Source: Clostridia bacterium
GTDB lineage: Bacteria > Bacillota > Clostridia > Oscillospirales > Acutalibacteraceae
Assembly: GCA_017623615.1 (NCBI GenBank)
Contig: JAGAOT010000027.1
Coordinates: 1 to 47,746, forward strand
Reading direction: 5' to 3'
DNA length: 47,746 nucleotides
The notes beneath the pieces were generated by a model that saw only the letters and a program-made list of their open reading frames with translations, ran no database searches and had not been told where the DNA came from. Shown piece by piece: positions 5,040 through 47,746 of the stretch (position 1 is its first letter; every line of letters starts with the position of its first letter). The position numbers and the translations under genes were made by a program.

Positions 5040-6363
5040 TAAGATTAAATCGGCAATAGAAAAATATTCAATGCTTCCCGTCGGCGCAACGGTTGTTGCG
5101 GCGGTTTCGGGCGGCAGCGATTCAATGGCAATGCTGACCGCTCTCAACATGCTCAAAAACGAATATTCAATCGAGCTTTGCGCAGCGCATGTTAACCATT
5201 GCCTGCGCGGCGAGGATGCCGACAGCGACGAAGCTTTTGTTGTTCAAAAGTGCAATGAAATGGGCATCCCCGTGCATGTGCTTCGGGCCGATGTTGCAAA
5301 AAAAGCGGCTGAAAGCGGCGAAAGCTTTGAGGAGTGCGGGCGCAGGGTCAGATATGAGTTTTTTGCTTCAATAGCCGAAAATGCGCTTATTGCCACCGCG
5401 CACAACCTTGATGACAGAGTTGAAACCTTTCTTTTCAATTTTGCAAGGGGCAGCGCACTGCGCGGGCTTTGTTCAATTCCCGCAAAAAGAGATAACATAA
5501 TAAGACCGCTCATTGATTGCACCAAGGCTGAAATCTTTGATTTCTGCGAGAAAAATTTAATAGAATATGTAACCGATGCCACAAATGCGGATGTTAAGTA
5601 TGCGCGAAACAGAATAAGGCACAATGTCATAACCGAGCTTCGCGAAATCAATCCGTCTTTTGAAAGTTGTGCGGCAAGGTGCATTTCCGCGGTTAACGAG
5701 GATGAGCGATTTTTGTCGTCGCTTGCCGATGAGCTTGTTGAAAAGGCAATGACAGACGGCGGCTTTGATGCTTCCGTTATTTCCGAAGCTCCCGCACCGC
5801 TCAAAAAACGCGCGGTTATCAAAATCTGTGAAAAGAGCGTTGATATTACTCCTGAACAGAAATTTGTTGAAAAAATCTGTGATTTGCTCAAAGATGCGGG
5901 CAGTCTGCAGATTAACGGCGGCGTAACCGTCAGGGTGCGCAGGGGAGTGCTTGATTTTCCGCAGGAAGAAGCAAATCCTGAGCCTGTTAAGATTGAAAAC
6001 GGCAGAGCAGCTTTTGCGGGTGCAAGCATAGAAACACAAATTATTAATATTAATGAAATAAATAATTTACAAAACATTTTAAAACAGGGCTTGGAATATT
6101 TCCTCGATTGTGATAAAATACTCGGCGATGTTACTGTCAGAAGCCGTGCGGCAGGCGATAAAATAACGCTCAAATCGCGCGGAGTGACAAAATCGCTCAA
6201 AAAGCTTTTTAATGAGCTTGCGGTTGCTCCCGAAAAAAGAAACGGAATTGCGGTTTTCGCCGATGACGGCGGAGTTATTCTTGTTGAGGGTGTCGGATGT
6301 GATGCGAGAGCTGCGGTTACAAAGGCAACCGAAAAAGTTATGATTGTTAAAATCAAAAGATAA
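5032..6363 (+). CDS. tilS: tRNA(Ile)-lysidine synthase
   Basis: TilS attaches lysine to C34 of the CAU-anticodon tRNA-Ile using ATP, converting it to an AUA decoder; it is cytoplasmic and essential. The 443 residues show the N-type ATP pyrophosphatase loop SGGSDSMAM near residue 25, [17 protein letters not shown], then [11 protein letters not shown] and a C-terminal TilS domain. The frame extends upstream to 4891 inside dnaB, but the ATG at 5032 gives the canonical start [11 protein letters not shown] and overlaps the dnaB stop by 8 bases, so it was chosen. The tilS-hpt-ftsH order downstream matches Bacillus. Confidence 0.95.
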
Positions 6364-6380
6364 ATATGGGGTATGACTAT

Positions 6381-6968: not shown

Positions 6969-8870
6969 TTGAATACAAAAAATAACAAACCGGGTGACTT
7001 CAAGAAGAAGCTGCCGACAATACTTTCATATATTCTGATTCCCGTTATGATAATCGGCGGCATGTTTTTCTACATGCAGAATCAGACAAAAGAAAAAACA
7101 GAATATTACGAAATCGTTGCTCTTTTCGATGAGGGCAAGGTTGCCGAATATAAGCTTAATTTGAGCAGCGGAGCGCTCACTTATACGCTTCGGGGCGAGG
7201 AGCAGGCGCGTTCCTTCTCCGTGCCGAGCGTCAGCCTTTTTGTTGAGGATATTCACGAAAGCGTTATCAAATATAACCGTGAAAATCCCAAAAACAAGAT
7301 AGAGGCGGATTATATTGCCGGCTCAACGGGCGAATGGCTTTATAACATCGTTCCCACTCTGCTTTTGCTTGCGGTTATGGGCGTTTTGACCTTCTTCATG
7401 TTCAGACGCATGAATCAGACAATGACCAACGAAAACAACCGCACCTTAAGCTTCGGCAAAGCAAGAATCAAGCATGCAAAGGACGAAAAGAGAAAAACAA
7501 CATTCAAGGATGTTGCAGGTGCGGATGAGGAAAAAGAAGAGCTTGAAGAAATTGTTCAGTTCCTCAAAGACCCCCACAAGTTCGATACTCTCGGTGCACG
7601 CATTCCCAAGGGCGTTTTGCTTGTAGGCCCTCCGGGCACGGGTAAAACCCTGCTTGCAAGGGCGGTTGCGGGCGAAGCGGATGTTCCGTTCTTCTCAATT
7701 TCGGGCTCTGACTTTGTTGAGATGTATGTCGGTGTCGGCGCATCAAGAGTGCGCGACCTTTTTGACCAGGCAAAGAGAAGCTCGCCTTCAATTATTTTCA
7801 TCGACGAAATTGATGCCGTAGGCCGCCACAGAGGCGCAGGCATGGGCGGCGGTCATGATGAAAGAGAACAGACTCTTAACCAGCTTCTTGTTGAAATGGA
7901 CGGCTTCGGCGCAAACGAGGGCGTTATTGTTATTGCGGCAACCAACCGCCCCGATATCCTTGACCCCGCGCTTCTCCGCCCCGGCAGATTTGACCGTCAG
8001 GTAACCGTTAATTATCCCGACACAAAGGGCAGAGTTGAGATTCTTAAAGTTCATGCAAAGGGCAAACCCATCGCTCCCGATGTTGACCTTAACAGCATTG
8101 CTCACGCAACCGTCGGCTTCACCGGTGCTGACCTTGAAAACTTGCTCAACGAAGCAGCGCTTCTTGCGGCAAGAAACGATAAAAAGGCAATCACCATGGA
8201 GGAGATTGACGAGGCCGCCCTTAAAGTTCAGGTCGGCTCCGAAAAGAAATCCCATAAGATGAACGAAAAAGCGAAAAAGCTGACTGCTTATCACGAGGCG
8301 GGTCACGCCGTTTCAAGCTTCTATCTTGAAAACAAAGACCCCGTTCATCAGATTTCGATTATCCCCAGAGGCATGGCAGGCGGCTACACGCTTTACAGAC
8401 CCGTTGAGGATAAGAATTACACCTCCAAGAACGAGATGCTTGATAACCTTGTCAGCCTGCTTGGCGGACGCGTTGCGGAGGCGCTTGTTCTCGGCGATAT
8501 TTCAACGGGTGCTTCAAACGATATTGAAAGAGCAACCGAAATTGCCAGAAGCATGGTTACAAAATACGGCATGAGCGAAAAGCTTGGTCCCATCTCCTTC
8601 GGCGGCGAAAACCATCAGGTTTTCCTCGGAAAAGATTACAGCAACGTTCGCAACTATTCCGAAAGCGTTGCGGCGCAGATTGACGAAGAGATTGAAAGCA
8701 TCATCAGAAATGCTTACGGCAGAACGGAAAGCATCCTCACCGAGCATATGGATAAGCTTCATATAATCGCTCAGAAGCTCTTTGAGCACGAGAAGATGAC
8801 AGGCGAGGAATTTGCCGCAATCATGACCGAAACGGCTCCCGCAGCCGCTGAAAGCGAAACAAACGAATAA
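6969..8870 (+). CDS. ftsH: ATP-dependent zinc metalloprotease FtsH
   Basis: Membrane-anchored AAA+ protease that degrades misfolded membrane proteins and short-lived regulators. The 633 residues contain two membrane segments (about 13-34 and 122-143) around an external loop, the AAA domain with Walker A GPPGTGKT at 220-227, Walker B IIFIDEID and the second region of homology [20 protein letters not shown], then the peptidase zinc site HEAGH at 442-446. The start is a TTG with AAGGAGTG ten bases upstream; no in-frame ATG fits. A strong hairpin terminator follows at 8878. This is the last gene of the housekeeping block. Confidence 0.97.
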
Positions 8871-9055: not shown

Positions 9056-10120
9056 ATGGCAACTGTAAAACTTGTTTTAGCATTCTTTATTTCGCTTTTT
9101 CAGATTCTTACGCCCGTAACGGCTCTTGTTATGAATTTCGGTGAAAGCAATTTTTTTGACGAGTGGTCGGCAACGGATAAGTTCACGGCAGATTATTGTG
9201 CGGAAATTGAAAAGAACCCGAACGAAGATTTTATTATCCTTAACCTTGCCGATGTACAGCTTAAAGATGATTTGGTTTATGAGGAAGAAGGCGAGAAAAC
9301 AGAAGAGATGATTGACAGTCTCATCCAAAAAACCAAACCTGACCTCATCACACTGACGGGTGACAATGCTTGGGGCACGATTGCGTATATTAAACTTATC
9401 AATCAGATTGATTCTTACGGTATTCCTTGGGCACCCGTTATGGGAAATCACGACGGTCAGTGCCTGATAAATGAATTTTGGGCTGCTTATCTTCTCTTCA
9501 AGGCCGAAAACTGTCTTTTTGAGTTTGGTCCCGAAAACATGGGCTACGGCAACTATATCATAAACATTACCGAAAACGGAAAAATCATCCACACGCTTTT
9601 CATGGTTGATACTCATAATAACGCAGAATTTACTCTTGAAGACGGCTCAACGGTTGGCGGTTATGACCATCTCTGGGATAATCAGATTGAGTGGTATAAG
9701 TGGGCTGTTAACGGGATTACCGAAATTGCGGGCAAAACTGTTGAAAGTTCGGTTTTTTTACATATTCCCGTTTGTGAATACAAAGATGCATGGTTAAAAG
9801 CCTATGGCAGCGATGAGCACGGAGCTCTTGCTTCTGAGCTTGCCCCTGCCGCAATCGGCATTAACGGAGAAGGCGTATGCTGTTCACCCGTAAACAACGG
9901 TTTCTTTGATGTTTGCAAAGGACTCGGAAGCACAAAAAATATATTTGCAGGTCACGACCATGCAAATAATTTCCAGATTTATTATGAGGGTATCAGACTC
10001 AACTATACGCTCAAAACCGGATACGGTGCATATTATACCGACGGTCTTATGGGCGGAACGGTAATATCGGTTAACTCTGACGGCGCGGCATATGCAGAGC
10101 ATCTTTATATGTCAAACTGA
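9056..10120 (+). CDS. Calcineurin-like metallophosphoesterase, probably exported
   Basis: A binuclear-metal phosphoesterase of the calcineurin fold; the substrate cannot be deduced. Of 354 residues the first 25 are hydrophobic and look like a signal peptide or membrane anchor. Metal-site motifs appear in order: DVQ at 66-68 (families usually have DxH here), GDN at 102-104, GNHD at 130-133, a central H in FLHIPV, and GHDH at 299-302. An AGAGGT site precedes the ATG. It stands alone with its own promoter and a shared terminator. A second DxQ-type metallophosphoesterase lies at 13231, on the other side of the zinc transporter operon. Confidence 0.85.
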   Translation: MATVKLVLAFFISLFQILTPVTALVMNFGESNFFDEWSATDKFTADYCAEIEKNPNEDFIILNLADVQLKDDLVYEEEGEKTEEMIDSLIQKTKPDLITLTGDNAWGTIAYIKLINQIDSYGIPWAPVMGNHDGQCLINEFWAAYLLFKAENCLFEFGPENMGYGNYIINITENGKIIHTLFMVDTHNNAEFTLEDGSTVGGYDHLWDNQIEWYKWAVNGITEIAGKTVESSVFLHIPVCEYKDAWLKAYGSDEHGALASELAPAAIGINGEGVCCSPVNNGFFDVCKGLGSTKNIFAGHDHANNFQIYYEGIRLNYTLKTGYGAYYTDGLMGGTVISVNSDGAAYAEHLYMSN

Positions 10121-10151
10121 AAAAACAATTTGATGAGCTGAACATACGGTA

Positions 10152-10182
10152 AAAGCCAAGGTGAAAATTCCACCTTGGCTTT
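10152..10182. terminator. Bidirectional terminator between convergent genes
   Basis: A perfect 12-bp stem, AAAGCCAAGGTG (10152-10163) with CACCTTGGCTTT (10171-10182), has a 7-base loop. Short T-tracts occur on either side depending on strand. It sits between the forward metallophosphoesterase and the reverse znuB, so it can end both transcripts. Confidence 0.8.
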
Positions 10183-10189
10183 AATCATT

Positions 10190-11032: not shown

Positions 11033-11739
11033 TCGTCACACCCTCCGTCGCAGATAAAGCAGTGGCAGCCGTCGCTGTTTTTATAGTCCTCTTTTGTTCC
11101 GAAGAAAAGGGGCTTGTTGCCGATGTGCAGAATGTGAGAAGCAAATTCAATCGCGGCGTGGATATCGTGAGAAACCATTATAACCGTGACGCCCTCTTTG
11201 TTTATATCGGTTATCAGCTTGTAAAGATTTTTTGTAACAACGGGGTCAAGCCCCGCAACCGGCTCGTCAAGCACAAGCAGCTTTTTGCTTGCGCAAAGTG
11301 CCCTTGCAAGCAAAACCCTTTGCTGCTGACCGCCCGAAAGCTCTCTGTAACAGCTTTTTGCAAGGTTTGTTATATCCAAACGCTCCATAATGTCAAGCGC
11401 ACGCCTTTTTTGCTCTTTTGAATAAAACGGGCGCATTCCGCAGCCGTTAAGGCAGCCCGAAAAAACAATTTCTTTAACCGAAGCGGGAAAATCCTTTTGC
11501 ACCTCGGTTTGCTGCGGCAGATAGCCTATTTCTTTTTGCTTTAATCCATCGCCGAATTCAATTTTGCCTGCAACAACATTCTTTTGCCCGAGCAGCGTTT
11601 TCATAAGCGTGCTTTTGCCGGAGCCGTTTTCACCCACGATGCAGAGATAGTCGCCTTGGTTAACTTCAAAATTAAGGTCGGTAACTATCGGCTTGCCCTC
11701 GTATCCGAGCGAAGCTCCGCTGACTGTAATCAATGCCAT
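11029..11739 (-). CDS. znuC: Zinc/manganese ABC transporter ATP-binding protein (ZnuC-like)
   Basis: Cytoplasmic ATPase that powers the importer. The 236 residues show Walker A GENGSGKST, a Q-loop in GYLPQQTEV, the signature LSGGQQQRVLLARAL, Walker B LLVLDEPVAGLD and the switch His in VSHD. The last residues are unusual: C225, H226, C227, C230 and C234 in GCHCFICDGGCDE form a possible metal-binding tail that most ZnuC proteins do not have. The start overlaps the znuA stop by one base (TGATG) and the stop overlaps the znuB start. Confidence 0.93.
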   Translation of the reverse strand: MALITVSGASLGYEGKPIVTDLNFEVNQGDYLCIVGENGSGKSTLMKTLLGQKNVVAGKIEFGDGLKQKEIGYLPQQTEVQKDFPASVKEIVFSGCLNGCGMRPFYSKEQKRRALDIMERLDITNLAKSCYRELSGGQQQRVLLARALCASKKLLVLDEPVAGLDPVVTKNLYKLITDINKEGVTVIMVSHDIHAAIEFASHILHIGNKPLFFGTKEDYKNSDGCHCFICDGGCDE

Positions 11740-12692
11740 CAGTTAAGTGCCTCCCGAAGAATTTCAAGATTGTTTTCCATAATATTAAGGTAATTTGCGC
11801 CTTGTACGATATCTACAGAGGATACCGATTGGCATGAGTTGAGCGAGAGCACCTTTGCGCCCGTTTCGCCCGAAATCATTTCCGCAATCGAGCCGTCAGA
11901 GCCGTCAATGGAAAGAATGACGGGCAAATTCAGTTCTTTGGTTTTGTCGATGAGAAACGCCATTGTTTCAAAGCTCGCTTCGCTTTCCGATGAACAGCCG
12001 GCGAACGCGGCGTAATATGTCAGAGAATAATCCTCTGTCATATATCTGAAAGGAAAGCGGTCTGCAAAAAGGAGTGTATTCCTTTCGGCAGAGTTGATAA
12101 CGGCTTGGTATTCGCCGTCAAGTGCGTTAAGCTTTTCAATATATTCATCGGCATTTGCTCTGTAGAGTGCTGCATTTTGCGCATCAATTTCGCAAAGCGC
12201 ATTGCAGAGATAATCCGTGATTTTTGCGGCGTTTTTAAGAGAAAGCCAGATATGCTCGTCCTCTTTTTCGTGGTCGCCGTCATGCGCTTCAATATGCTCG
12301 TGCTCATGGTCATGCTCCATGCCCGCGGCATATTCTTCTTCAAGAGTATCAACCGTATCCATCAGCGCAACCGCCTTTAAATCGGGATTGTTTGCGGATT
12401 TCAGCGCGCCCTCTGCCCATGAGTCCGAAACCCCGCCGAGATAAACAAACAAATCAGCCGAGCCTATTGCGATTATATCCTGCGCCGTCGGCTCATAGCT
12501 GTGCAAATCCCCGCCGTCGTCAACAAGCATGGCAAGCCCCTCGTCGGAGCCGAGAATGTTTTTGATGTAATCATATTGCGGAAATGCCGTGCAAACAATT
12601 TTCAGACCCTCGCTTTCCTGCGCCGTGTTGCCGCAGGAGCAAAGAGAAAATGCAAGAATAAATATAAGTATTAACGAAACAATTTTTTTCAT
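11739..12692 (-). CDS. znuA: Zinc-binding lipoprotein of the ABC importer (ZnuA-like)
   Basis: Extracellular solute-binding protein, cluster A-I, delivering Zn2+ or Mn2+ to ZnuB. I start at ATG 12692, which has GGAGGA just upstream; the frame extends to 12758 without a good start. The 317-residue product begins with a lipoprotein signal (hydrophobic stretch, then LCSC with C20 as lipid site). The metal ligand region DLHSYEPTAQD and a loop rich in His, Asp and Glu (HDHEHEH...DHEKEDEHIW) are typical of zinc-specific members. The third ligand region reads ADRFPFRYM rather than the common HxAFxY, a variant I associate with clostridial proteins. It sits 13 bases after the regulator gene. Confidence 0.92.
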   Translation of the reverse strand: MKKIVSLILIFILAFSLCSCGNTAQESEGLKIVCTAFPQYDYIKNILGSDEGLAMLVDDGGDLHSYEPTAQDIIAIGSADLFVYLGGVSDSWAEGALKSANNPDLKAVALMDTVDTLEEEYAAGMEHDHEHEHIEAHDGDHEKEDEHIWLSLKNAAKITDYLCNALCEIDAQNAALYRANADEYIEKLNALDGEYQAVINSAERNTLLFADRFPFRYMTEDYSLTYYAAFAGCSSESEASFETMAFLIDKTKELNLPVILSIDGSDGSIAEMISGETGAKVLSLNSCQSVSSVDIVQGANYLNIMENNLEILREALN

Positions 12693-30246: not shown

Positions 30247-30311
30247 AATTATAATTATGTTTAATGGAAAATTGTTTTCAGATAATAAATACGATTGGAG
30301 TGGATTTAAAA

Positions 30312-32441
30312 GTGAGTGAGAACATCGTTCAGTATGTTGCCGCCGCTTCAAAGGGCGACACAGATGCAATGGCAAAGCTCTACTCAAAAACTTTAAAAGC
30401 ATCCTATTTCCTTGCTTCTGCGTTAAGCGCGGAGGACTCAAATGCAGTCGATATAACCAAAAAGGCTTATGCAAAGGCTTTCAGCTCGATTGATAAGCTC
30501 AAAAGACCCGAGGCTTTTGAAATTTGGATGAAGCAGAATGTTGCCGCCGCATATAAAGAAGGCAAAAAGTTTGTTTTTGCCGATGCAGATGCAGGTGCAG
30601 CCGAAAATTCCTCCGAATTCCTTTCGGAAGATGTTTTTGAAGATGAAGAAAAAAGTGCAGGCGTGCTCAAGGCTGTTTCCGAGCTTCGCCCCGAGCTTCG
30701 TGCCGCAATCATTCTTCACTATAACAACGGAATGCCCGTTTCAATTATTGCAAAGTTTTTCGGCGTTTCCGAAAGCACGGCAAACGCGCTCCTCGGAAAA
30801 GCAAGGGCAAACGTTCTTGCCGGTGCAGGTCTTGAAGCAGACAGCAGCTCAAGCGGCTCGCTGCCCGTTTTAACAAGAATTTTCCAGCGTGCGGCTGCTG
30901 CAATATCTATTGATAACACGGTTGTCAGAGATGTGTTTATTTATGCAATAGATGCATATGAGGCATCAAAGCCCGCCGTTCCCGCCGAAGAGGAACAGCC
31001 CGTTCCCGCTCCGGTTGAAGCTCCTGCAGAGGAAGAAAAGCCGGCGGAAGAACCCGTTCAGGAGGCGGTTGAAGCTCCCGCAGAGCCCGAAGCTGTTCCC
31101 GAAGAGGAAGCACCGCAGAGCAATATCATCTCGTTCAAGCAAAAGATAAACGAGCTTCTTGATAATAACGGCGAGTCTGCTCCCGAAGCGGCAGAAGAGA
31201 TTCCTGCAGATGATGATGCAGAGGATGCCGTTGAAATCCCCGCGTTTGTTCCCGTCAGCGAAGAAGCAGAGCGTGCCGTTGAGCAGTTCTCAAGCTACGA
31301 AAAGCCCGAGGCACCTGCATCTCCCGCCAAGAAAAAGCTTGATATTAAGCTTAACAAAAAAGTCATCGGCATCGCATGTGCATGCCTTGCGGTTGTTGTT
31401 GTAATCTGCGTTGCAATCGGTGTTGGCCGTTCCGATGCTCCCGCAGGCAATGAAGGCTCAAATGCCGTTGAAACCGTTGCAGCAGGCTATAAATGGGTTG
31501 AGGGCGGCTTCGCGGAGTGCGCAGAGCTTGAATATCTTGACGAAACATGCGCATATTTCAAATCCGCATCAACCGGCAAATACGGTCTTATCGACTATCA
31601 GGGCAATGTTATTCTTCAGCCCAATTACGACGGCTTCAAGCGCTGCGCAACGGGCAGAGATTATGAAAACGGCGACCTTTATCACAGCCTTGTTATCATC
31701 AACGGCGAGGAATACGAAATTTCCGTTGATAACGGTTTGGCTTCAATCTCTCAAACTCCTCATATTGACCACAGCGTAAGCAACGCTGTTCTTGAAGATA
31801 CCTCATATGACGAGCGTGACCGCTATTTTGAGGGCTATGCCGCCGCAAGAAAAGACGGCAAGTGGGGCTATGTCAGCCAGGAAAAGGACAAGCGCGTTAT
31901 CAAATATGAGTATGATGCCGTTAATGAATTTTCGTCCGCTTTGGATTCTGCAGGCAGCGACTATTGCCGCCCCGTAACAAACGGACTTGTTGCTGTTAAG
32001 AAAGACGGCGCAATGGGTATCATCGACCTTAAAAACAAAACCGTTGTTCCTTTTGAATACAGCAACATCATGCCCGGCAGCAACGGTGTGTTTATTGCAT
32101 GCAAGGGCGGCACATGGGGCGTTATCCTTGTGGGCGATGCCGTAGCATCATTCGGCGGTGTTAACATTTCCGTTGACCCGCTTTCACCCGATATGCCGGA
32201 GGATATCACCTCAAGCGGCACTAACACCCTCGGCAGCTACACGGTTATTTCCGAGGACGGTGCCAATGTTCGCGGCGGCGCAGGCTCCGATTATGACCTT
32301 CTCGGTGAGCTTGAATACGGCGACACGGTTGTTGCTTATGAAACAAAGAGAGCCGATAACGGCAACAAATGGGCAAAAATCAAATATAACGGCGAATACG
32401 GCTGGGTTGCTTTGAGCATGCTTGAAGAAGAGGGAGCGTAA
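30312..32441 (+). CDS. ECF-sigma-like domain fused to a membrane-anchored WG-repeat and SH3 sensor
   Basis: A 709-residue single-pass membrane protein. Cytoplasmic side: an ECF sigma region 2-like part (1 to about 95, GDTDAMAKLYSKTLKASYFL and NAVDITKKAYAKAF), a region 4-like helix-turn-helix (about 123-172, ELRPELRAAIILHYNNG, IAKFFGVSESTANALLGKAR), then a Pro/Glu/Ala-rich linker (about 215-337). A membrane segment spans 351-372. Outside lie WG repeats (GKYGLIDYQGN, GKWGYVSQ, GAMGIIDL, GTWGV; about 420-600) and a bacterial SH3 domain (642-709, ANVRGGAGSDY). The GTG start has GGAG 11 bases upstream; the ATG at 30264 would add 16 residues without a ribosome site. Whether the sigma part still binds RNA polymerase is unknown; it may sense the wall. 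Confidence 0.8.
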   Translation: MSENIVQYVAAASKGDTDAMAKLYSKTLKASYFLASALSAEDSNAVDITKKAYAKAFSSIDKLKRPEAFEIWMKQNVAAAYKEGKKFVFADADAGAAENSSEFLSEDVFEDEEKSAGVLKAVSELRPELRAAIILHYNNGMPVSIIAKFFGVSESTANALLGKARANVLAGAGLEADSSSSGSLPVLTRIFQRAAAAISIDNTVVRDVFIYAIDAYEASKPAVPAEEEQPVPAPVEAPAEEEKPAEEPVQEAVEAPAEPEAVPEEEAPQSNIISFKQKINELLDNNGESAPEAAEEIPADDDAEDAVEIPAFVPVSEEAERAVEQFSSYEKPEAPASPAKKKLDIKLNKKVIGIACACLAVVVVICVAIGVGRSDAPAGNEGSNAVETVAAGYKWVEGGFAECAELEYLDETCAYFKSASTGKYGLIDYQGNVILQPNYDGFKRCATGRDYENGDLYHSLVIINGEEYEISVDNGLASISQTPHIDHSVSNAVLEDTSYDERDRYFEGYAAARKDGKWGYVSQEKDKRVIKYEYDAVNEFSSALDSAGSDYCRPVTNGLVAVKKDGAMGIIDLKNKTVVPFEYSNIMPGSNGVFIACKGGTWGVILVGDAVASFGGVNISVDPLSPDMPEDITSSGTNTLGSYTVISEDGANVRGGAGSDYDLLGELEYGDTVVAYETKRADNGNKWAKIKYNGEYGWVALSMLEEEGA

Positions 32442-40778: not shown

Positions 40779-41654
40779 ATGACCTTTTTCGGAAATATAG
40801 CCGAGTTTTTTTCAAAGATTCCGTCTTTGAGCTTCGGCGTAACGGATTTTCTTGATATCTGCCTTGTTGCGTTCATTATTTACAACGCGATAAAGCTTAT
40901 CAGAGAAACAAGAGCTTTTCAGCTTGTTAAGGGTCTTTTGCTTCTCGGCGCGGGATATCTCATTATCGGCATGCTTGAAATGCAGGCAAGCTCCTATATT
41001 TTCAGGTTTGTTTTCCAAAACATTTTCATTATTCTCATTATCCTTTTCCAGCAGGAGATAAGGCAGATTTTGGAGAGAGTCGGCAAAAGTAAATTCACCA
41101 ACATCAGTCTGCTTTTAAAGGGTAACCGCGTTGCGCAGGAAGAAACAGTCGGCAATGCCGTTATCGAAATTGCAAAGGCTGTTCAGCGTATGAGCGACAG
41201 TAAAACCGGCTCCCTTATCGTTATGGAAAAAGAAATGCTTCTCGGCGATGTTATAAAGACGGGCAAAAGCATTGATGCTTTTGTTACCCATGAGCTTATC
41301 GGCAACATATTTTTCCCCAATTCTCCGCTGCATGACGGCGCGGCTGTTGTCAGAAACGGAAGGCTCCTTTGTGCGGGCTGCGTTTTGCCTCTGACCAAAA
41401 GTGACGAGGTTTCCAGCGATTTGGGCACAAGACACAGAGCGGCATTGGGCATGAGCGAGCAAAGCGATGCAATGGTTATTGTTACCTCGGAAGAAACAGG
41501 CATAATTTCCGTTGCATTTAAAGGCGAGCTTATCCGCGGTCTTAACGAAGCGGAGCTTCGCGAAAAGCTGCTTAACTATTTGATTGATGCCGTGCCCGAT
41601 AAGGATTCGGATTCGGGAATGCTCAAAAAACTGTTTAAGGGTTGGAAAAAATGA
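40779..41654 (+). CDS. cdaA: Diadenylate cyclase CdaA
   Basis: Membrane enzyme that joins two ATP into c-di-AMP. The 291 residues have three membrane segments in the first 90 residues and a DAC domain with the catalytic D186-G-A in SPLHDGAAVV and R218-H-R in GTRHRAALG. AGAAAGGAATGG precedes the ATG. It overlaps cdaR by four bases (ATGA). In Firmicutes cdaA-cdaR is usually followed by glmM; here the pair is followed by a terminator instead. The degrading enzyme GdpP is at 1236. Confidence 0.96.
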   Translation: MTFFGNIAEFFSKIPSLSFGVTDFLDICLVAFIIYNAIKLIRETRAFQLVKGLLLLGAGYLIIGMLEMQASSYIFRFVFQNIFIILIILFQQEIRQILERVGKSKFTNISLLLKGNRVAQEETVGNAVIEIAKAVQRMSDSKTGSLIVMEKEMLLGDVIKTGKSIDAFVTHELIGNIFFPNSPLHDGAAVVRNGRLLCAGCVLPLTKSDEVSSDLGTRHRAALGMSEQSDAMVIVTSEETGIISVAFKGELIRGLNEAELREKLLNYLIDAVPDKDSDSGMLKKLFKGWKK

Positions 41655-42928
41655 AAAAGAAAAATCAAAGAATAAGCGACCTTTTTTATAACAATCGCTT
41701 TTTGTTTGTGTTTTCGGTTGTTGTTGCCGTTATAACATGGCTTGTTGTTGCGGTTGAATTTGCAGAAACCGAAAACATCATAAAAAATGTTCCCGTTCAG
41801 ATTGATTACAGCAGAATTCAAGATAATCTCGGCGGGCTTGAGCCTTTCGGCGAAACCGAGTTTTTTGTTGATGTCACAATAAGCGGCAAACGCCATATTG
41901 TTGAGTCGGACGATGTCAAGGACGATTTGGTTGTAACAGCCAACACAAGCTATGTCAGCTCTGTCGGCACATACAGCCTGAATCTCGCCGTTACATCCGC
42001 TTCCGTCAGACCGGAATACGATGTTGTGGGCACTTCGACCAACTCGATTGATGTTTATTTTGATTACTACAAAGAAAAAGAGTTCAAGGTTGAAGCTGAC
42101 ATAGATTTTGCTTCTCCCGCTGTGCCGGAGGGATATCATATGGATAATTTTATCCTCTCCAATGCAGCAACTGTTAAGGTCAGCGGACCCGAAACCGAAA
42201 TCAACAAAATAAAGGCTGTGTCAGCAAAAGCAACGAATGAAGGCAATCTGCGCCAAAGCCAAACGGTTGATGCAATTCTGACTGCTGTTACGGTGGACGG
42301 CTCAACCCCGAAATATATTTCGTTCAACAGACAGTCCGAAAAAATTCAGATAACAATTCCCGTTTATAAGATTGCTACGCTTCCCGTAACCTGCGGCTTC
42401 AGCAACACTCCGTCGGAATATCTGGGCAATCTTCCGTTCACTGTTTCGATAAGCCCCGCAACGGTTACTTTCGGTGTGCCCGAAAACGAGCTTGCAGGCA
42501 AAACAAGCATGGAGCTTGCAACAAAGATAGATTTTTCGGAGCTGAAAACTGGGGTTAATACCTTCAATGTCAAGGCGACCGGCGGCGAAATAGTCGGCGG
42601 CATAGTGCTTGACGAAACGCAGGAATTTGTTATAACCGTCAAGGTTGGCGGCATGTCCTCAAAAACGGTTGCCGCACCGCAGAATGTCAGCTTTATCAAC
42701 GTTCCCGACGGTTTGGTAACAGAAACCTCAAGCCTCAATTTTTCTGAGATGACTGTTATCGGTCCGCAGGAAAAACTTGATTTGATTACTGCTGACAGCA
42801 TAAACCTTGTGGCGGATTTCAGCGACATAGACGAAAACGCTTCAGATGTTGTAACCGTGCCCGTGCGCATTTCAGACGGCAGCTGCTGGTCCTACGGCTT
42901 CTATACGGTAACGGCAACAATTTCATAA
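41651..42928 (+). CDS. cdaR: CdaA regulator CdaR (YbbR repeats)
   Basis: Extracytoplasmic partner that modulates CdaA. The 425 residues comprise an N-terminal membrane anchor (about 12-37, FLFVFSVVVAVITWLVVAV) and about four YbbR repeats, seen as recurring VxVSGP/VxVxGxxxxI patterns (for example VTISGKRHIV, VKVSGPETEI, MTVIGPQEKL). ATG 41651 overlaps the cdaA stop and gives the usual MKKKN start; a TTG three codons earlier is in frame but less likely. Ends before a strong terminator. Confidence 0.9.
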   Translation: MKKKNQRISDLFYNNRFLFVFSVVVAVITWLVVAVEFAETENIIKNVPVQIDYSRIQDNLGGLEPFGETEFFVDVTISGKRHIVESDDVKDDLVVTANTSYVSSVGTYSLNLAVTSASVRPEYDVVGTSTNSIDVYFDYYKEKEFKVEADIDFASPAVPEGYHMDNFILSNAATVKVSGPETEINKIKAVSAKATNEGNLRQSQTVDAILTAVTVDGSTPKYISFNRQSEKIQITIPVYKIATLPVTCGFSNTPSEYLGNLPFTVSISPATVTFGVPENELAGKTSMELATKIDFSELKTGVNTFNVKATGGEIVGGIVLDETQEFVITVKVGGMSSKTVAAPQNVSFINVPDGLVTETSSLNFSEMTVIGPQEKLDLITADSINLVADFSDIDENASDVVTVPVRISDGSCWSYGFYTVTATIS

Positions 42929-42941
42929 GATTATTAACCTC

Positions 42942-42970
42942 AACGGCATGGCTTCGGTCATGCCGTTTTT
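42942..42970 (+). terminator. Rho-independent terminator after cdaR
   Basis: Stem AACGGCATG (42942-42950) with CATGCCGTT (42959-42967), 8-base loop containing TTCGG, then T to 42970. It marks the boundary between the core genome and the repeat-rich region. Confidence 0.92.
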
Positions 42971-42982
42971 GTTGTGATGTTA

Positions 42983-43011
42983 TTGACAAAAATGCATAAA
43001 AAGCTTATGAT
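42983..43011 (+). promoter_or_regulatory. Promoter of the first cassette gene
   Basis: TTGACA (42983-42988) and TATGAT (43006-43011), 17-base spacer, directly after the cdaR terminator. It is the only good promoter seen before the cassette region and could transcribe several cassettes. Confidence 0.7.
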
Positions 43012-43044
43012 AATTTTGAAAAATAATGCTATGCATTCAGGCAT

Positions 43045-43070
43045 AACACATGGGGCGGTTCTGTGTGTTG
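43045..43070. repeat. Degenerate copy of the GGGGACGGTTCTGTGTC element
   Basis: Arms AACACA and TGTGTT enclose TGGGGCGGTTC, a decayed form of the GGGGACGGTTCTGTGTC unit seen intact at 43583 and 44110. It lies in the leader of the gene at 43090. Confidence 0.5.
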
Positions 43071-43089
43071 ACAATAAGGTGGGAATATA

Positions 43090-43581
43090 ATGAAATTCTG
43101 TAAAAATAAAGCAAAAGTGATTTTGTATTATTGTGTAACGTATCTTTTGTTGGCGGTTTTGGTTGCGACGATTGTCGCATTGGTTTTTGATGAAAATACA
43201 ATTCAGCGTATTGTTATAATAGAATTGATACTTGTTGCGGCTGTTTTCCCTTTTATTAAAATGCATATTGCAGAAGTGAAGCAGACCGTTGAGTTAGGTG
43301 AAGAAGGGCTAGTTTGTGAGAATTTTATTATAAACGGTAATGTGGCAAACGGAAAAATAGATTATAAACTAATTGAAAGTATAACTTTGAAAAGTGTTCT
43401 TTTGAAACCGTTTTCGTATTGTCTGTATGTAAAATTAAAGAACGAAAAACCCTTTGCATTAAATGATGATTATATCAATTATAAAGAATTGTGGTTATCA
43501 TTTTGTCAAAAATGCAAAGAGAACAACCCTGATGCTTTTATCGATGAAGCTATTTTTAAAAAATTAGGTAAACAGGGATAA
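43090..43581 (+). CDS. Small membrane protein with PH-like tail; possible orphan immunity protein
   Basis: A 163-residue protein of unknown function: two membrane segments (about 10-33 and 38-57) and a soluble C-terminal half with beta-rich pattern (VELGEEGLVCENFII, IDYKLIESITLKSVLLKP), like small bacterial PH-type domains. AAGGTGGG lies before the ATG. Codons are clearly more AT-rich than in the core genes. Its TAA stop is the TAA at the start of the composite repeat at 43578. Context next to an Rhs toxin remnant makes an orphan immunity role possible, without direct evidence. Confidence 0.7.
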   Translation: MKFCKNKAKVILYYCVTYLLLAVLVATIVALVFDENTIQRIVIIELILVAAVFPFIKMHIAEVKQTVELGEEGLVCENFIINGNVANGKIDYKLIESITLKSVLLKPFSYCLYVKLKNEKPFALNDDYINYKELWLSFCQKCKENNPDAFIDEAIFKKLGKQG

Positions 43582-43646
43582 GACAGGGGACGGTTCTGTG
43601 TCTTGAGGGTAGGGGCGATTCACGAATCGCCCGCCAATTCCGCACA
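43578..43646. repeat. Composite palindromic repeat, copy A
   Basis: Begins ATAAGACAGGGGACGG and is identical over 69 bases to 44105-44173 (copy B). Two modules: AGACA/TGTCT flanking GGGGACGGTT, then a GTAGGGG-headed palindrome with stem GGGCGATTC (43613-43621) and GAATCGCCC (43624-43632). After the shared block it continues into a different palindrome (43665) where B and C have a second GTAGGGG unit. The first TAA is the stop of the preceding gene. Confidence 0.85.
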
Positions 43647-43664
43647 CATCAATGTCAACCTTTG

Positions 43665-43710
43665 CCTCCCTCGCGAGGGAGGTGGATTTTGCGAAGCAAA
43701 AGACGGAGGA
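43665..43710. repeat. Palindromic element CCTCCCTCGCGAGGGAGG with second hairpin
   Basis: An 18-base perfect palindrome (43665-43682) is followed by hairpin TTTTGC/GCAAAA (43687-43701) and ends AGACGGAGGA. The final GGAGGA serves as ribosome site for the gene at 43719. From memory, similar elements recur in gut Clostridia genomes. Confidence 0.7.
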
Positions 43711-43718
43711 TAATTTAT

Positions 43719-44108
43719 ATGAAATATAAGAAGACTTTTTTGCAAATATTTGTTTATGTAGAGATGTTATTCTTTTTGCTCGGATATTTTGTTGATTTAC
43801 AGTTTTTTTTAACAGAGCATCCTTTGTCATTTTCTTTGTTTCCGCTTCTTTTTATCTTGATTCTAAATTTAGTTATAATACTAATTTCAATTTCAATTTT
43901 TAGATTTTATATTGAAATCAGCATTGATAAAAACATTATCAAAACATGCTTCAAAGTAAGTTTGGGTGTTTTGGTGTTTTTGATTGTATCATCAAGTCTG
44001 CAAATCATATTTGAATTAGAAAAAATGTTTTTGGTGTTGTCGCCCTTGTGCTTTACTGTATCAGTATGCACCTTAATATTAGTTTCAAAAGTTAAAAGTA
44101 ATAGATAA
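43719..44108 (+). CDS. Small four-helix membrane protein; possible orphan immunity protein
   Basis: A 129-residue hydrophobic protein with about four membrane segments (roughly 6-28, 36-60, 78-98 and 103-123) and no recognised motif. ATG 43719 has GGAGGA eight bases upstream, supplied by the repeat element; the frame extends to 43662 through the repeat and is not used. It is very AT-rich. Its TAA stop again coincides with the TAA that opens composite repeat copy B. Similar in size and type to the immunity-like protein at 45443. Confidence 0.65.
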   Translation: MKYKKTFLQIFVYVEMLFFLLGYFVDLQFFLTEHPLSFSLFPLLFILILNLVIILISISIFRFYIEISIDKNIIKTCFKVSLGVLVFLIVSSSLQIIFELEKMFLVLSPLCFTVSVCTLILVSKVKSNR

Positions 44109-44220
44109 GACAGGGGACGGTTCTGTGTCTTGAGGGTAGGGGCGATTCACGAATCGCCCGCCAATTCCGCACAAATTCAATTTTACATCGTAGGGGCGCA
44201 CCTCTGTGTGCGCCCTGAAA
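44105..44220. repeat. Composite palindromic repeat, copy B
   Basis: Contains the 69 bases shared with copy A, then a linker and a second GTAGGGG palindrome (stem GGGCGCAC with GTGCGCCC, about 44192-44217). Bases 44114-44220 are identical over 107 bases to 45861-45967 (copy C). Such identity implies recent duplication or gene conversion. Confidence 0.88.
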
Positions 44221-45443
44221 TCAATGCTCGTGTTGATTTATGCTACGATTCGCCGAGCTCTGGAAATGCCGTGTCAAAATACGGCGACTACACCATGACT
44301 TATGATGAGATTGGTAATCCGATAAGCTACAAGGGCTATTCCATGGCATGGACAAAGGCAAAACAGCTTGCCTCTGTGTCGGGTAACGGAATTACCATGT
44401 CATTCAAGTATGACAGCAACGGAATCAGAACATTGAAGCGCGTGAATGGTGTAGATACCGAGTTTACCTACGCAGGCACAACGCTTGTGAGCCAAAAAAC
44501 GGGCAATGAAATAATGAATTTTGCCTATACCGCAGGCGGCGCACCCTATGGCTTCACCTACAACGGAACAAATTATTTTTATCTGTTAAATCTCCAAGGT
44601 GACATAATCGGCATATATGATTCCAACGGCGATGTGGTTGTAAAATACGCCTACGATTCATGGGGTCAGCTAATGTCGATAACGGGCACTTTGGCTGATA
44701 CAATAGGTGTTAAAAATCCTTTGAGATACAGGGGATATTACTACGATACTGAAACAAAATTGTATTACCTGCAAAGCCGTTATTATGACCCCGAAACCTG
44801 TCACTTCATCAGCATGGATTCCTACTTTGTCGCAGGCGACTACATCAACGGTATGAATATGTATGCGTATTGCCTTAATAACCCGGTGATGTATGTTGAC
44901 CCGACGGGGTGTATGTCTGAATCTGCTTTTGAATTGATGAAGCTTGTTAATTTTGCCGTGAATGCACTTAGCGTTTTCCAAAAAATGCTTGATGTTATTT
45001 TTGGTGAAACTCCTGTTGAATCAAGTCCCGCTCCAGAAGGTGTAGATATTACAGAAAAGCTAAATAAAGTAATGAAAGCAAATGCAAAAGATATGAGCGA
45101 TTACAGGAAATCCCATTCTTATTTGGAAAGTGTAATGTTTTTTGTTGAAAATGTTAGGACTGGTGGTGAATGGGACTATAAAAATCATCTTGACCCTAAT
45201 ACAACCTACATATATAACAATAATGGCGTTTATGTTGAACTTCGTTATGATGATATTGGGAATATAAATTTTGGATATGTGGGAAGAATTTTGTTTAGTG
45301 AAGAGATTTTGTGCATGGGAGCTGGTGCATATCAATTAATTGGAGGCCCGCGAAATTGGGGGATAAGTTCATACTTTGATGATCCGAGAGACCAATGGGC
45401 AATTAGGTATGGTTACTCGCTATGGGACAATGGAGGTATATGA
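44130..45443 (+). CDS. 5'-truncated Rhs protein with toxin-44-like C-terminal domain
   Basis: Polymorphic toxin remnant. The open frame starts at a TTG inside repeat copy B, with about 42 codons of repeat sequence before Rhs similarity begins near 44256; there is no native N-terminus, export domain or clear start. YD repeats follow (YGDYTMTYDEIGNPISYKG, MSFKYDSNGIRTLKRVNG), then the Rhs core LRYRGYYYDTETKLYYLQSR, YDPETCHFISMDS and AYCLNNPVMYVDPTG, which ends near 44911. The last about 177 residues contain VRTGGEWDYKNHL, GNINFGYVGR, GAGAYQL and SSYFDDPRDQWAIRYG, matching my memory of polymorphic toxin type 44, a predicted RNase. A membrane protein gene overlaps its stop by one base. Confidence 0.75.
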   Translation: MRVGAIHESPANSAQIQFYIVGAHLCVRPEINARVDLCYDSPSSGNAVSKYGDYTMTYDEIGNPISYKGYSMAWTKAKQLASVSGNGITMSFKYDSNGIRTLKRVNGVDTEFTYAGTTLVSQKTGNEIMNFAYTAGGAPYGFTYNGTNYFYLLNLQGDIIGIYDSNGDVVVKYAYDSWGQLMSITGTLADTIGVKNPLRYRGYYYDTETKLYYLQSRYYDPETCHFISMDSYFVAGDYINGMNMYAYCLNNPVMYVDPTGCMSESAFELMKLVNFAVNALSVFQKMLDVIFGETPVESSPAPEGVDITEKLNKVMKANAKDMSDYRKSHSYLESVMFFVENVRTGGEWDYKNHLDPNTTYIYNNNGVYVELRYDDIGNINFGYVGRILFSEEILCMGAGAYQLIGGPRNWGISSYFDDPRDQWAIRYGYSLWDNGGI

Positions 45444-45880
45444 TGAGCAAAAAATTAATACCGGCAATTTTAGATGGAGTAGTTTGTAGCATAACTTTAC
45501 AAATTTTGAGTGAGTTTGTTATCTCGATTTATTCGAAAAATTTATCATTATATCAGTGTTTATTATTGAGTACAATAATTTCAATGGTTTGTGCAATAAT
45601 ATATGTTTCATCTGTTTCTAAAGAAGCAAAAAATAAAACGCTTGTGGTTTTATCATTAATTAGCGTTCTATCTTTTGTGCTTTTTACAATAGCAATAATT
45701 GTATGTTGTTTAATTTTTCCAAATTATAATTATTTTCCATTGCGCGAGGAAAATAATGGCGATGCTATTCTATTGATGTTTTCTATGGGTGCATTTATAT
45801 TGTTTTCTATATTTACAAGATTGGTTGTTTTAATAGTTTGTATAATAAAGAATAACACAAGGGACGGTTCTGTGTCTTGA
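45443..45880 (+). CDS. Membrane protein, candidate immunity partner of the Rhs toxin
   Basis: A 145-residue protein with four membrane segments (about 8-30, 38-58, 68-94, 112-137). Its ATG overlaps the toxin stop (TGATG) and GGAGG (45432-45436) lies 6 bases upstream, the layout expected of an immunity gene. The last about nine residues (NTRDGSVS) are encoded by repeat copy C, so the original C-terminus has probably been replaced. AT-rich like the other cassette genes. No recognised immunity family; function inferred only from position. Confidence 0.65.
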   Translation: MSKKLIPAILDGVVCSITLQILSEFVISIYSKNLSLYQCLLLSTIISMVCAIIYVSSVSKEAKNKTLVVLSLISVLSFVLFTIAIIVCCLIFPNYNYFPLREENNGDAILLMFSMGAFILFSIFTRLVVLIVCIIKNNTRDGSVS

Positions 45881-45967
45881 GGGTAGGGGCGATTCACGAA
45901 TCGCCCGCCAATTCCGCACAAATTCAATTTTACATCGTAGGGGCGCACCTCTGTGTGCGCCCTGAAA
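45855..45967. repeat. Composite palindromic repeat, copy C
   Basis: Identical over 107 bases (45861-45967) to copy B. The left edge differs (ACACAAGGGACGG for AGACAGGGGACGG), which shifts the stop: the preceding gene reads through to the TGA of TCTTGA at 45878. Confidence 0.88.
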
Positions 45968-46140
45968 CGACGTGCTCGTTTCCGTTTCCAATCCGCAGAT
46001 TTCGGGCGTGCCCGAAACAACGATTGAGCTAAGCTCGGATAACAGCTATTGGCAGATAGACAATGTCATGAACGTCTATTATGCGTGCTACGACCAATTC
46101 GGGCGCCTTGAAATGACGGCAACAGATGATATAACCTCTT
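45968..46140 (+). pseudogene. Fragment of an unknown gene between repeats
   Basis: An open frame of about 57 codons starts right after copy C, with ISGVPETTIELSSDN and YYACYDQFGRLEMTATDDI, then runs into repeat copy D. It lacks a ribosome site and start of its own. The end YDQFGR...DDITSL is similar to the fragment at 46223 (YDQYSR...EITSM), so both may derive from one gene interrupted by repeats. Confidence 0.5.
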
Positions 46141-46144
46141 TAAA

Positions 46145-46171
46145 AGACAGGGGACGGTTCTCTGTCTTGAA
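46145..46171. repeat. Copy D of the GGGGACGGTTCT unit
   Basis: AGACAGGGGACGGTTCTCTG plus TCTTG; arms AAGACAG and CTGTCTT form a hairpin. One base differs from copies A and B (TCTCTG for TCTGTG), and this change makes the palindrome better. No GTAGGGG unit is attached directly, but one follows at 46193. Confidence 0.75.
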
Positions 46172-46192
46172 AAGTATAGTTTTCAACGTGGT

Positions 46193-46218
46193 GTAGGGCG
46201 GATAATATCTGCCCCTAC
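46193..46218. repeat. GTAGGG-headed palindrome before the second fragment
   Basis: A 26-base imperfect palindrome: GTAGGGCGGATA at the left and ATCTGCCCCTAC at the right around AT. Both ends, including the GTAGGG head, take part in the symmetry here. Confidence 0.65.
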
Positions 46219-46222
46219 CTTG

Positions 46223-46321
46223 TACAGCTATGACCAATACAGCCGCGCGGCGGGGGTTGAAATAACCTCAATGGCAGACAGTTCAATCGGACTGTCTGCT
46301 TTTTTATTAACTATATATTAA
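46223..46321 (+). pseudogene. 3' remnant of a decayed gene
   Basis: Frame YSYDQYSRAAGVEITSM then runs through the terminator to a TAA. It resembles the end of the fragment at 45968. The strong terminator just after (46274) is what would follow a normal gene end, supporting a broken gene rather than chance. Confidence 0.4.
46274..46305 (+). terminator. Rho-independent terminator closing the cassette region
   Basis: Stem GCAGACAGT (46274-46282) with ACTGTCTGC (46291-46299), 8-base loop, then six T. Confidence 0.92.
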
Positions 46322-46346
46322 ATTTATAATAATTATTAAATAGATA

Positions 46347-46376
46347 TTGATTTATATATTAATATCGTGCTATAAT
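46347..46376 (+). promoter_or_regulatory. Promoter of the terminal lipoprotein gene
   Basis: TTGATT (46347-46352) and TATAAT (46371-46376), 18-base spacer, in a very AT-rich stretch. Confidence 0.65.
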
Positions 46377-46421
46377 AACATGAAATATTATCAAGATTAG
46401 GATGGGAAAGGAGCGACGAAA

Positions 46422-47746
46422 ATGAAACGCATTTTTTCGGCTGTTTCAGTGCTTATGGCGGCTGCCTGTTTTGTTTTTTCTTCGTGCAGCACCGATGTGC
46501 TCATACGTCCCGTTGACTCCCTGCTTTCCCCTCCGCTTTATTATGAGGAATACGAAGACCTTCTTGAAGCCTTCAACAAAAATGTCGGTGGCGATTTTTC
46601 ATTCTGCCATCCTCAAAGGGGCGACTACCGCTCCGCAATCATTGTTGAGGATATTGATTCCGACAGTCAGAAGGAAGCGTTTATATTCTATAAAAACAGC
46701 GCGGACACAACCAACGCAAGAATGTATTGCTTCGACTACACGGACGGCAGGTGGATTCCCGACGGCGATTTCAACGGCTACGGCAACGGGATTGACAGCA
46801 TCAAGCTGACCGATATGGATTCCGACGGCGTGAGCGAGCTTATGGTTTTGTGGAGCTTTTCGGGAGTTTCTTCGGGCAGCATAATGTCGCTTTACAGAGC
46901 CCAGCCTATCATCGGCGAATACAGAGAAATTTCTAACGAGGCGTGCTCCGTTTGCGAATTTGTTGATGTTAACGGCAACGGAGAGAAAGAAGTATTTTTT
47001 ATAACTCAAAGCAATGTTTCGGGTGTCAGCCAAAGGTCGGCAAAGGTTATGAAGCTTTCGGGCGATTCGGTTGCTTTGATGGGTGAAGCAAGGCTTGACC
47101 CCAACATAAGCAGCTATACGGCGGTCAAAACAGAAAAAGCAGCTTCCGACGAGCCGATGAAAATATATGTTGATGCGCTCAAGGGTGAGCAGCAAATGAT
47201 AACCGAGCTTGTTTATTGGGACGGTGAAAAATCCGAGCTCTGCGCTCCGTTTCTTGATGCGGAAACAATGTCCAACACCGTAACGCTCCGCTACGAGCCA
47301 ATCGGATGCTCCGATATGAATAACGACGGAATAATTGATATTCCCGTTCAGTCCCGTATTTTCGGCAAGGGCGACAATGCGCTCACAATCGACACGGAAA
47401 ACATATATCTCACCGAGTGGAAAAACTACAGAGGTGCGGGTCTTGAAACCGCCGCATACACTCTGATAAATTATTCCGACGGCTATATGGTTGCTCTTGA
47501 TGAGAGCGAAATCAACACAACGGGGATAAGAAACTACCGCTCGCAAAATTGCTGGGTTGTATACAAAACAAACGCTGCGGGCGAATCGACAGGCGAGATT
47601 TATTCGGTGCTCAAAATCTTTTCCGACAGATGGGATGAAGCCAGATTCAGCGCGTATATTCCCATAGTAGAAAAAGAGGATTCCGTGGTTTGCGTTTATG
47701 TTACTCAAAACGGCAAGGACAGGGGAATTGACGAGGATTTTGTGAA
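46422..47746 (+). CDS. Lipoprotein with EF-hand-like (VCBS/FG-GAP type) repeats, 3'-truncated
   Basis: An open frame of 441 codons with no stop before the window end. AAAGGAG lies 8 bases before the ATG. The N-terminus is a lipoprotein-type signal (KR, hydrophobic run, FSSC with C22), so the protein should be anchored outside the membrane. Recurrent acidic loops EDIDSDSQKEAF, TDMDSDGVSELMV, VDVNGNGEKEVFF and SDMNNDGIIDIPV look like calcium-binding DxDxDG motifs of VCBS/FG-GAP proteins. The function is unknown. A long reverse frame over the same DNA (46599-47708) is a shadow. Confidence 0.82.
   Translation, partial: MKRIFSAVSVLMAAACFVFSSCSTDVLIRPVDSLLSPPLYYEEYEDLLEAFNKNVGGDFSFCHPQRGDYRSAIIVEDIDSDSQKEAFIFYKNSADTTNARMYCFDYTDGRWIPDGDFNGYGNGIDSIKLTDMDSDGVSELMVLWSFSGVSSGSIMSLYRAQPIIGEYREISNEACSVCEFVDVNGNGEKEVFFITQSNVSGVSQRSAKVMKLSGDSVALMGEARLDPNISSYTAVKTEKAASDEPMKIYVDALKGEQQMITELVYWDGEKSELCAPFLDAETMSNTVTLRYEPIGCSDMNNDGIIDIPVQSRIFGKGDNALTIDTENIYLTEWKNYRGAGLETAAYTLINYSDGYMVALDESEINTTGIRNYRSQNCWVVYKTNAAGESTGEIYSVLKIFSDRWDEARFSAYIPIVEKEDSVVCVYVTQNGKDRGIDEDFV

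Follow-up and report, generated by a model that had tools for sequence, protein, structure and literature searches.

What gathers a row of small genes behind the same palindromic repeat, and how does such a row come to stand between two conserved genes? The question is raised by a locus of a gut-type Clostridia bacterium of the family Acutalibacteraceae (contig JAGAOT010000027.1). The whole stretch of 47,746 nucleotides analysed, called the window here, carries near its right end an array of gene units, each ending at a composite of palindromic modules. Our results suggest, at somewhat better than even confidence, that this array is an acquired string of Rhs toxin and immunity-type genes, in which one module, the palindrome M1, is a portable boundary where units are added, lost and exchanged.

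The composite occurs in three copies, A (43578-43693), B (44105-44220) and C (45852-45967). It is built from M1, which is GACAGGGGACGGTTCTNTGTC; M2 (GTAGGGGCGATTCACGAATCGCCC) and M3 (GTAGGGGCGCACCTCTGTGTGCGCCC), both hairpins of the GTAG type of repetitive extragenic palindromic (REP) sequences; and M4, which is CCTCCCTCGCGAGGGAGG with TGGATTTTGCGAAGCAAAAGACGGAGG. A sequence-only reading of the window had reported 69 bases shared by A and B and 107 by B and C, a mixed third slot, and cargo units that end at the composite, and direct reading bore out all three. Copies A and B have exactly 69 bases in common, running from ATAAGACAG to CCGCACA, while B and C are 98% identical across 116 bases, of which the final 107 are identical. 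The third slot holds CCTCCCTCGCGAGGGAGG in A and GTAGGGGCGCACCTCTGTGTGCGCCC in B and C. M1 stands immediately at the stops of genes A and B, and the frame of gene C runs into M1, which supplies its stop codon. The array is enclosed by two extra M1 copies: at 43048 stands a degenerate copy with 3 mismatches, and the copy at 46147 is exact. The observed numbers of M1 and M2 matches were reached by none of the shuffles, only 0 or 1 of 200 shuffles folded as well as the composites, and M1 itself folds as a hairpin. A search of Rfam across 42600-46500 gave no match at E up to 1. The array reads as follows.

43038..43071, plus strand: degenerate copy of M1, left border of the array (motif match)
43090..43581, plus strand: gene A, 163 aa, hydrophobic N-terminus, putatively immunity-type from context only
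43578..43709, plus strand: composite A, with M1 at 43582-43602, M2 at 43609-43632 and M4 at 43665-43709
43719..44108, plus strand: gene B, 129 aa, hydrophobic, putatively immunity-type from context only
44105..44220, plus strand: composite B, with M1 at 44109-44129, M2 at 44136-44159 and M3 at 44190-44215
44220..45443, plus strand: displaced Rhs C-terminus, core and then Ntox44 at about 45141-45431, without a start of its own after the repeat
45443..45880, plus strand: gene C, hydrophobic, presumed from its position to encode the Ntox44 immunity protein, its end encoded by M1
45852..45967, plus strand: composite C, with M1 at 45857-45876 (1 mismatch), M2 at 45883-45906 and M3 at 45937-45962
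45972..46144, plus strand: possible remnant of a YD-repeat (Rhs-like) gene from frame reading, with no Pfam match and no tblastn match in 362 loci
46146..46218, plus strand: last M1 (46146-46166) and a GTAGGGC hairpin (46193-46218), from motif match and folding

The array stretch is an insert within a conserved gene pair, because its neighbours, a YbbR-domain gene and a lipoprotein-like gene, are separated by 127-311 bp in 24 of the 29 relatives examined in the host genus and by 3.5 kb in the window. The right gene was unmatched in the other five, in one of which (L042) the contig ends. The left gene was found in 41 of 45 genomes, the host's own included, and loci were obtained for 30; in the nearest relatives compared, the flanking protein was about 52% identical.

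The nature of the cargo is indicated by the third unit, in which an Rhs core (TIGR03696, E 2.6e-22) is joined to an Ntox44 toxin domain (PF15607, E 7.3e-18) and followed by a hydrophobic protein. A core piece joined to a toxin domain is the mark of an Rhs orphan module, and on these domain matches the unit is the displaced C-terminal part of an Rhs protein, carrying an Ntox44 toxin; the membrane protein of gene C is presumed, from its position, to be the immunity protein of that toxin. A Pfam scan with E up to 1 assigned genes A and B to no family, and a search for relatives of A, B and C among the 362 loci returned a single weak match, for A (E 0.032). The frame through M1 encodes a DGSVS-like tail on several proteins that end there, gene C among them. 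Gene C was also compared with the hydrophobic protein that accompanies an Ntox44 toxin in another genome, G527, and a relationship between the two was discarded (E 0.36, with the likeness confined to the M1-coded tail). Another Rhs copy in the host's own assembly was likewise rejected as donor, as no Rhs match was found besides the third unit in that assembly (1.31 Mb, 64% complete).

M1 was found to be linked in position to Rhs genes across the family. Of 398 family genomes, 133 gave a match to the Rhs protein of the window, and the link was assessed in 76 family genomes with listed Rhs places (four others were excluded), with M1 sought at up to 2 mismatches; at most four of the listed Rhs places were scored per genome, and some Rhs places are missing from the list. 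M1 was present in 18 of the 76 genomes, in 67 copies. Within 3 kb of an Rhs core lay 21 of these copies against 0.30 expected, and 11 of the 18 M1 genomes, from 10 genera, had such a copy where 0.29 were expected (P about 6e-17 if copies are placed uniformly and independently, a model that ignores clustering of copies and kinship). Fifteen of the 21 copies were downstream of the core and 14 were on the same strand. Two further Rhs-positive genomes (G500 and G584) carry M1 1.26 and 1.29 kb behind the Rhs core. In the open papers searched we found neither an M1-Rhs link, nor the 16-base M1 core, nor RAYT and Rhs treated together.

This link bears on another explanation, in which M1 and the GTAG REPs settle passively between genes, and Rhs arrays tolerate them or carry them from M1-rich donors; the array itself would then have grown by displacement of Rhs C-termini through recombination in the Rhs core. 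Orphan pairs of Rhs C-terminus and immunity gene behind a main rhs gene, and recombination in the shared core, are indeed known, as the available text of PMC3967940 describes. Rhs orphan arrays without M1 are also common in the family: among 19 Rhs arrays fetched by Rhs similarity, only two (G604, G593) had M1 at up to 2 mismatches. As M1 is absent from most Rhs arrays, it is one way of ending units and not the rule. Passive settling does not readily explain why the GTAGGGG hairpins of the same genomes fail to gather at Rhs genes, with 1 of 150 examined within 3 kb (Fisher p 2.6e-11; 34 of the 184 hairpins were left out, from G687, G441, G631, G498, G544 and G553, two of these six being M1 genomes). 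Nor does it account for M1 standing directly at the ends of immunity-type genes. In nine of the 11 genomes (G749, G706, G506, G527, G594, G593, G604, G626, G498), the end of a gene behind the toxin overlaps M1 or is no more than 30 bp from it. Four M1 copies of G635 stand 43-157 bp behind small genes, and in G616 the distance is 564 bp. On balance, we regard passive insertion as unlikely, although it is the strongest of the rival explanations.

Some related observations were made on the Rhs arrays and M1 rows of the family. The loci L332 (G635), L336 (G659) and L330 and L331 (G604) hold rows of small genes between M1 copies, many with hydrophobic or lipoprotein-like starts, and L336, L330 and L331 contain no Rhs match. 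In other Rhs arrays, units are preceded by different repeats, each a terminator-like hairpin and then a TTGACA-type site (L307 at 5832-5965 and 8036-8169; L319 at 9143-9268 and 10058-10183; L184 at 1211, 4588 and 6182). One Rhs array (L303 of G563) contains two near-identical 900-bp stretches, at 5467-6370 and 11157-12060, a sign of recent duplication.

The position at gene ends could also be that of an RNA element, the M1 hairpin protecting or ending the transcript and being selected behind immunity genes with no role in exchange. Its folding and its place in the nine genomes agree with this, and REPs can stabilise mRNA or terminate transcription according to the available text of PMC6006769. 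M1 was not called as a terminator in the terminator scan of the region, and an RNA role leaves unexplained both the different genes found between M1 copies and the transposase genes inside Rhs arrays. We consider this explanation very unlikely. The membrane content of proteins ending near M1 was hardly different from that of other 70-300 aa open reading frames (ORFs), at 0.46 against 0.39.

The transposase connection comes from loci elsewhere, where M1 accompanies a gene for a Y1 transposase (PF01797). Among eight loci with Y1 genes of one family, M1 was observed on both sides of the gene in seven (L127, L142, L181, L205, L258, L325 and L328, the last with its Y1 gene in two pieces) and on one side in the eighth (L198). 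Such flanking of a Y1 transposase gene by a repeat on either side is the TIRtron arrangement in the available text of PMC3733652. As M1 flanks an HUH-type Y1 transposase gene at these loci, we assign it, from sequence and neighbourhood, to the TIRYT/RAYT class of repeats. The M1 motif GGGGACGG agrees with the published GGGGWSAS at 7 of 8 positions, one short of the strict motif, which is common to some terminal inverted repeats (TIRs) and not all (available text of PMC3733652 and PMC6006769). In G706, G594 and G221, a Y1 gene between M1 copies sits within or beside an Rhs array. Exact M1 was found in 6 of 394 genomes of the order, and in four of these, G000 (the host), G063, G221 and G028, at least one copy lies beside an Rhs piece. 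Within the host assembly, M1 was found in the array only; further copies could lie in the third of the genome that the assembly lacks. Pairing in the M1 stem exceeded that of independent columns at the outer positions (0.84 against 0.65, and 0.81 against 0.54). Perfect stems were present in 290 of 479 contexts, and this covariation is given little weight because 231 of the 290 are one sequence.

M2 and M3 behave differently from M1. In the host assembly, 49 GTAGGGG hairpins were counted, five of them inside the array; at least seven inverted GTAG-hairpin pairs occur, spaced 21-26 nt, and the succession of M2 and an M3-like hairpin about 30 nt on recurs on contigs C5 and C21. Every listed M2 and M3 copy has GTAG plus a stem, and GTAG hairpins are placed at gene ends as random intergenic places are. 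GTAG REPs are defined as GTAG plus a hairpin, with many copies and inverted pairs, in the available text of PMC6006769. By these features M2 and M3 appear to be GTAG REPs, dispersed over the genome, and in this respect the sequence-only reading is unsupported as it stood. The sole PF01797 gene found in the host assembly, on contig C9, has M2 within and alongside it. This Y1 ORF (212 aa, open; G000 C9:50543-50923, L095) contains two in-frame M2 copies, which encode an AIHESP/AIRESP peptide. An exact M1-M2 pattern was searched for elsewhere in the genome-contig collection, from which the host genome may be excluded, and gave 0 stretches.

Exchange of genes between M1 copies is suggested by a comparison of two other genomes of the family. 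In G594 (L337), one 191-aa gene lies between two M1-type palindromes. The same orthologous site is found in G659, a sister species of G594 in another genus than the window's, with a left flank 95% identical over 2.4 kb (contig C37) and a right flank 99% identical over 2.5 kb (C17). The identity ends within a few bases of the M1-type palindromes and different sequences lie beyond, a pattern that speaks against passive insertion. In G659 the right flank adjoins a gene for a 325-aa protein, and next to the left flank is the apparent start of a hydrophobic protein; neither the 191-aa nor the 325-aa protein has a Pfam match. A counterpart of the window array was found in G527, where M1-terminated units follow one another. 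Its last unit lacks an Rhs core and encodes an Ntox44 domain (E 4.6e-10) that shares 36% identity with that of the window, and behind this domain comes a hydrophobic protein ending in M1. Two spacers there join M1 to an M4-type element, and the first has the tail of composite A.

Taken together, these data suggest that the M1 palindrome may mark the ends of exchangeable gene units. A string of displaced Rhs toxin-immunity and immunity-type genes would have been acquired horizontally and placed between the two conserved genes, with M1 ending each unit and the REP-type hairpins M2 and M3, as well as M4, joined to it. Units would be gained, lost or swapped, and the breakpoints would lie at M1. 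Composites that carry M1 could undergo homologous recombination, a transposase could act on M1, or both could occur; recombination between composites would suffice, and transposase action is possible. A process of the kind suggested at the G594/G659 site would also have built the window array. A more specific proposal, which we consider unlikely, is that M1 and its Y1 transposase make up a cassette system of gut clostridia, in which the HUH enzyme, acting in trans on M1 hairpins in single-stranded DNA, moves or swaps single genes or toxin-immunity pairs between M1 copies. If true, toxins and immunities would be collected as integrons collect resistance genes, by an unrelated enzyme.

Several results weigh against M1 as a boundary of exchange. 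Turnover was seen at a single site, in a pair of draft genomes, of which the G659 assembly breaks within the array. In seven of the 18 M1 genomes, every M1 is remote from the listed Rhs places, and the association is weak when whole genomes are compared, as M1 occurs in 27 of 133 Rhs-positive and 33 of 265 Rhs-negative genomes (p 0.053). When all copies are counted, M1 is only modestly enriched near stops, lying within 30 bp of them at fractions of 0.32 and 0.37, against 0.19 and 0.24 for random intergenic places. A scan of the genome-contig collection with the M1 pattern plus TTG gave at least 119 stretches, of which 80 were made into loci; five hold a Y1 gene of the M1-linked family, two an Rhs match, and 73 neither transposase nor Rhs match. 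Such ordinary sites are what passive insertion would expect. The stretches fetched around M1 in G087 and G396, the other two genomes of the order with exact M1, and in G016, which is of the window's genus, show no Rhs or Y1 match, and the M1-linked transposase was not found in the 64%-complete host assembly. The sequence-only reading therefore stands in part. Its repeats as cassette ends hold for M1 and the Rhs units of the family, and outside it M1 is mostly at ordinary sites; its collection built by recombination gains support from the insert, the Rhs link and the different genes between palindromes in G594 and G659, and loses it with the dispersal of M2 and M3.

The surroundings of the array in the window are as follows.

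41642..42928, plus strand: YbbR-domain gene, the left neighbour (PF07949, E 2.9e-9)
42942..42967, plus strand: terminator-like hairpin ahead of the array (terminator scan)
42983..43011, plus strand: promoter-like site upstream of gene A, TTGACA-17-TATGAT, agreeing with the consensus at 11 of 12 bases
46273..46376, plus strand: terminator and promoter-like site, like the ancestral spacer of the gene pair (comparison with relatives)
46422..47746, plus strand: lipoprotein-like gene, the right neighbour, running off the window

The terminator and promoter-like site at 46273-46376 resemble the spacer found in relatives. The terminator hairpin before the array is only suggestive, because four such hairpins were found in the region against 3.2 expected, and the promoter-like sites as a set show no excess over chance. 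A tRNA-linked island was rejected, as the window has no tRNA. No integrase or transposase had been seen in view by the sequence-only reading, and none of these families was detected in the 21 of 37 listed upstream ORFs that were scanned, the YbbR ORF among them. Elsewhere in the window, a GdpP-type cyclic-di-AMP phosphodiesterase (1236-3200) lies 38 kb from the ORF pair 40779-42928 that precedes the array. The second gene of the pair is the YbbR-domain gene, and the first resembles a diadenylate cyclase. A single ORF at 30264-32438 combines a sigma-70 region 4 domain, WG repeats and an SH3 domain.

The array resembles several known systems. Like the TIRtrons and REPtrons, with their TIRYT and RAYT transposases, M1 flanks a PF01797 gene and carries nearly the published motif (available text of PMC3733652 and PMC6006769), and M2 and M3 have GTAG plus a hairpin in inverted pairs resembling REP dimers (PMC6006769, as far as available). 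Unlike these systems, in which the available parts of PMC3733652 and PMC6006769 describe no passenger genes, M1 in the host family is found, too, at the ends of Rhs toxin-immunity units and of further small genes. The sequence-only reading had suggested that the array may be an undescribed way of collecting toxin and immunity genes; the repeat class and its transposases are already described in the available parts of these two papers, and what remains new, as far as the open papers show, is the M1-Rhs link. With the Rhs orphan modules of PMC3967940, in its available text, the third unit shares a C-terminal piece, a toxin and a small gene, without the N-terminal part or a start of its own. The window differs from them in having no main rhs gene, with no other Rhs match in the assembly, and in its units ending at M1 composites, some of them single-gene. 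How Gram-positive gut bacteria gather and exchange Rhs toxin and immunity genes that have been displaced is so far poorly explained, and a unit-end palindrome of a known transposase class, with one instance of differing genes between such palindromes, offers a testable route for exchange, as well as a simple sequence handle for discovering new toxin and immunity genes. Integron cassettes are small units of the same orientation, each with a hairpin-forming repeat, attC, behind it. The units of the window are likewise small, of one orientation and followed each by a hairpin-forming repeat. They differ from integron cassettes in that no integrase family was found in the ORFs scanned, a search that covered neither attC features nor the assembly as a whole, and in that M1 accompanies the gene of a Y1 transposase.

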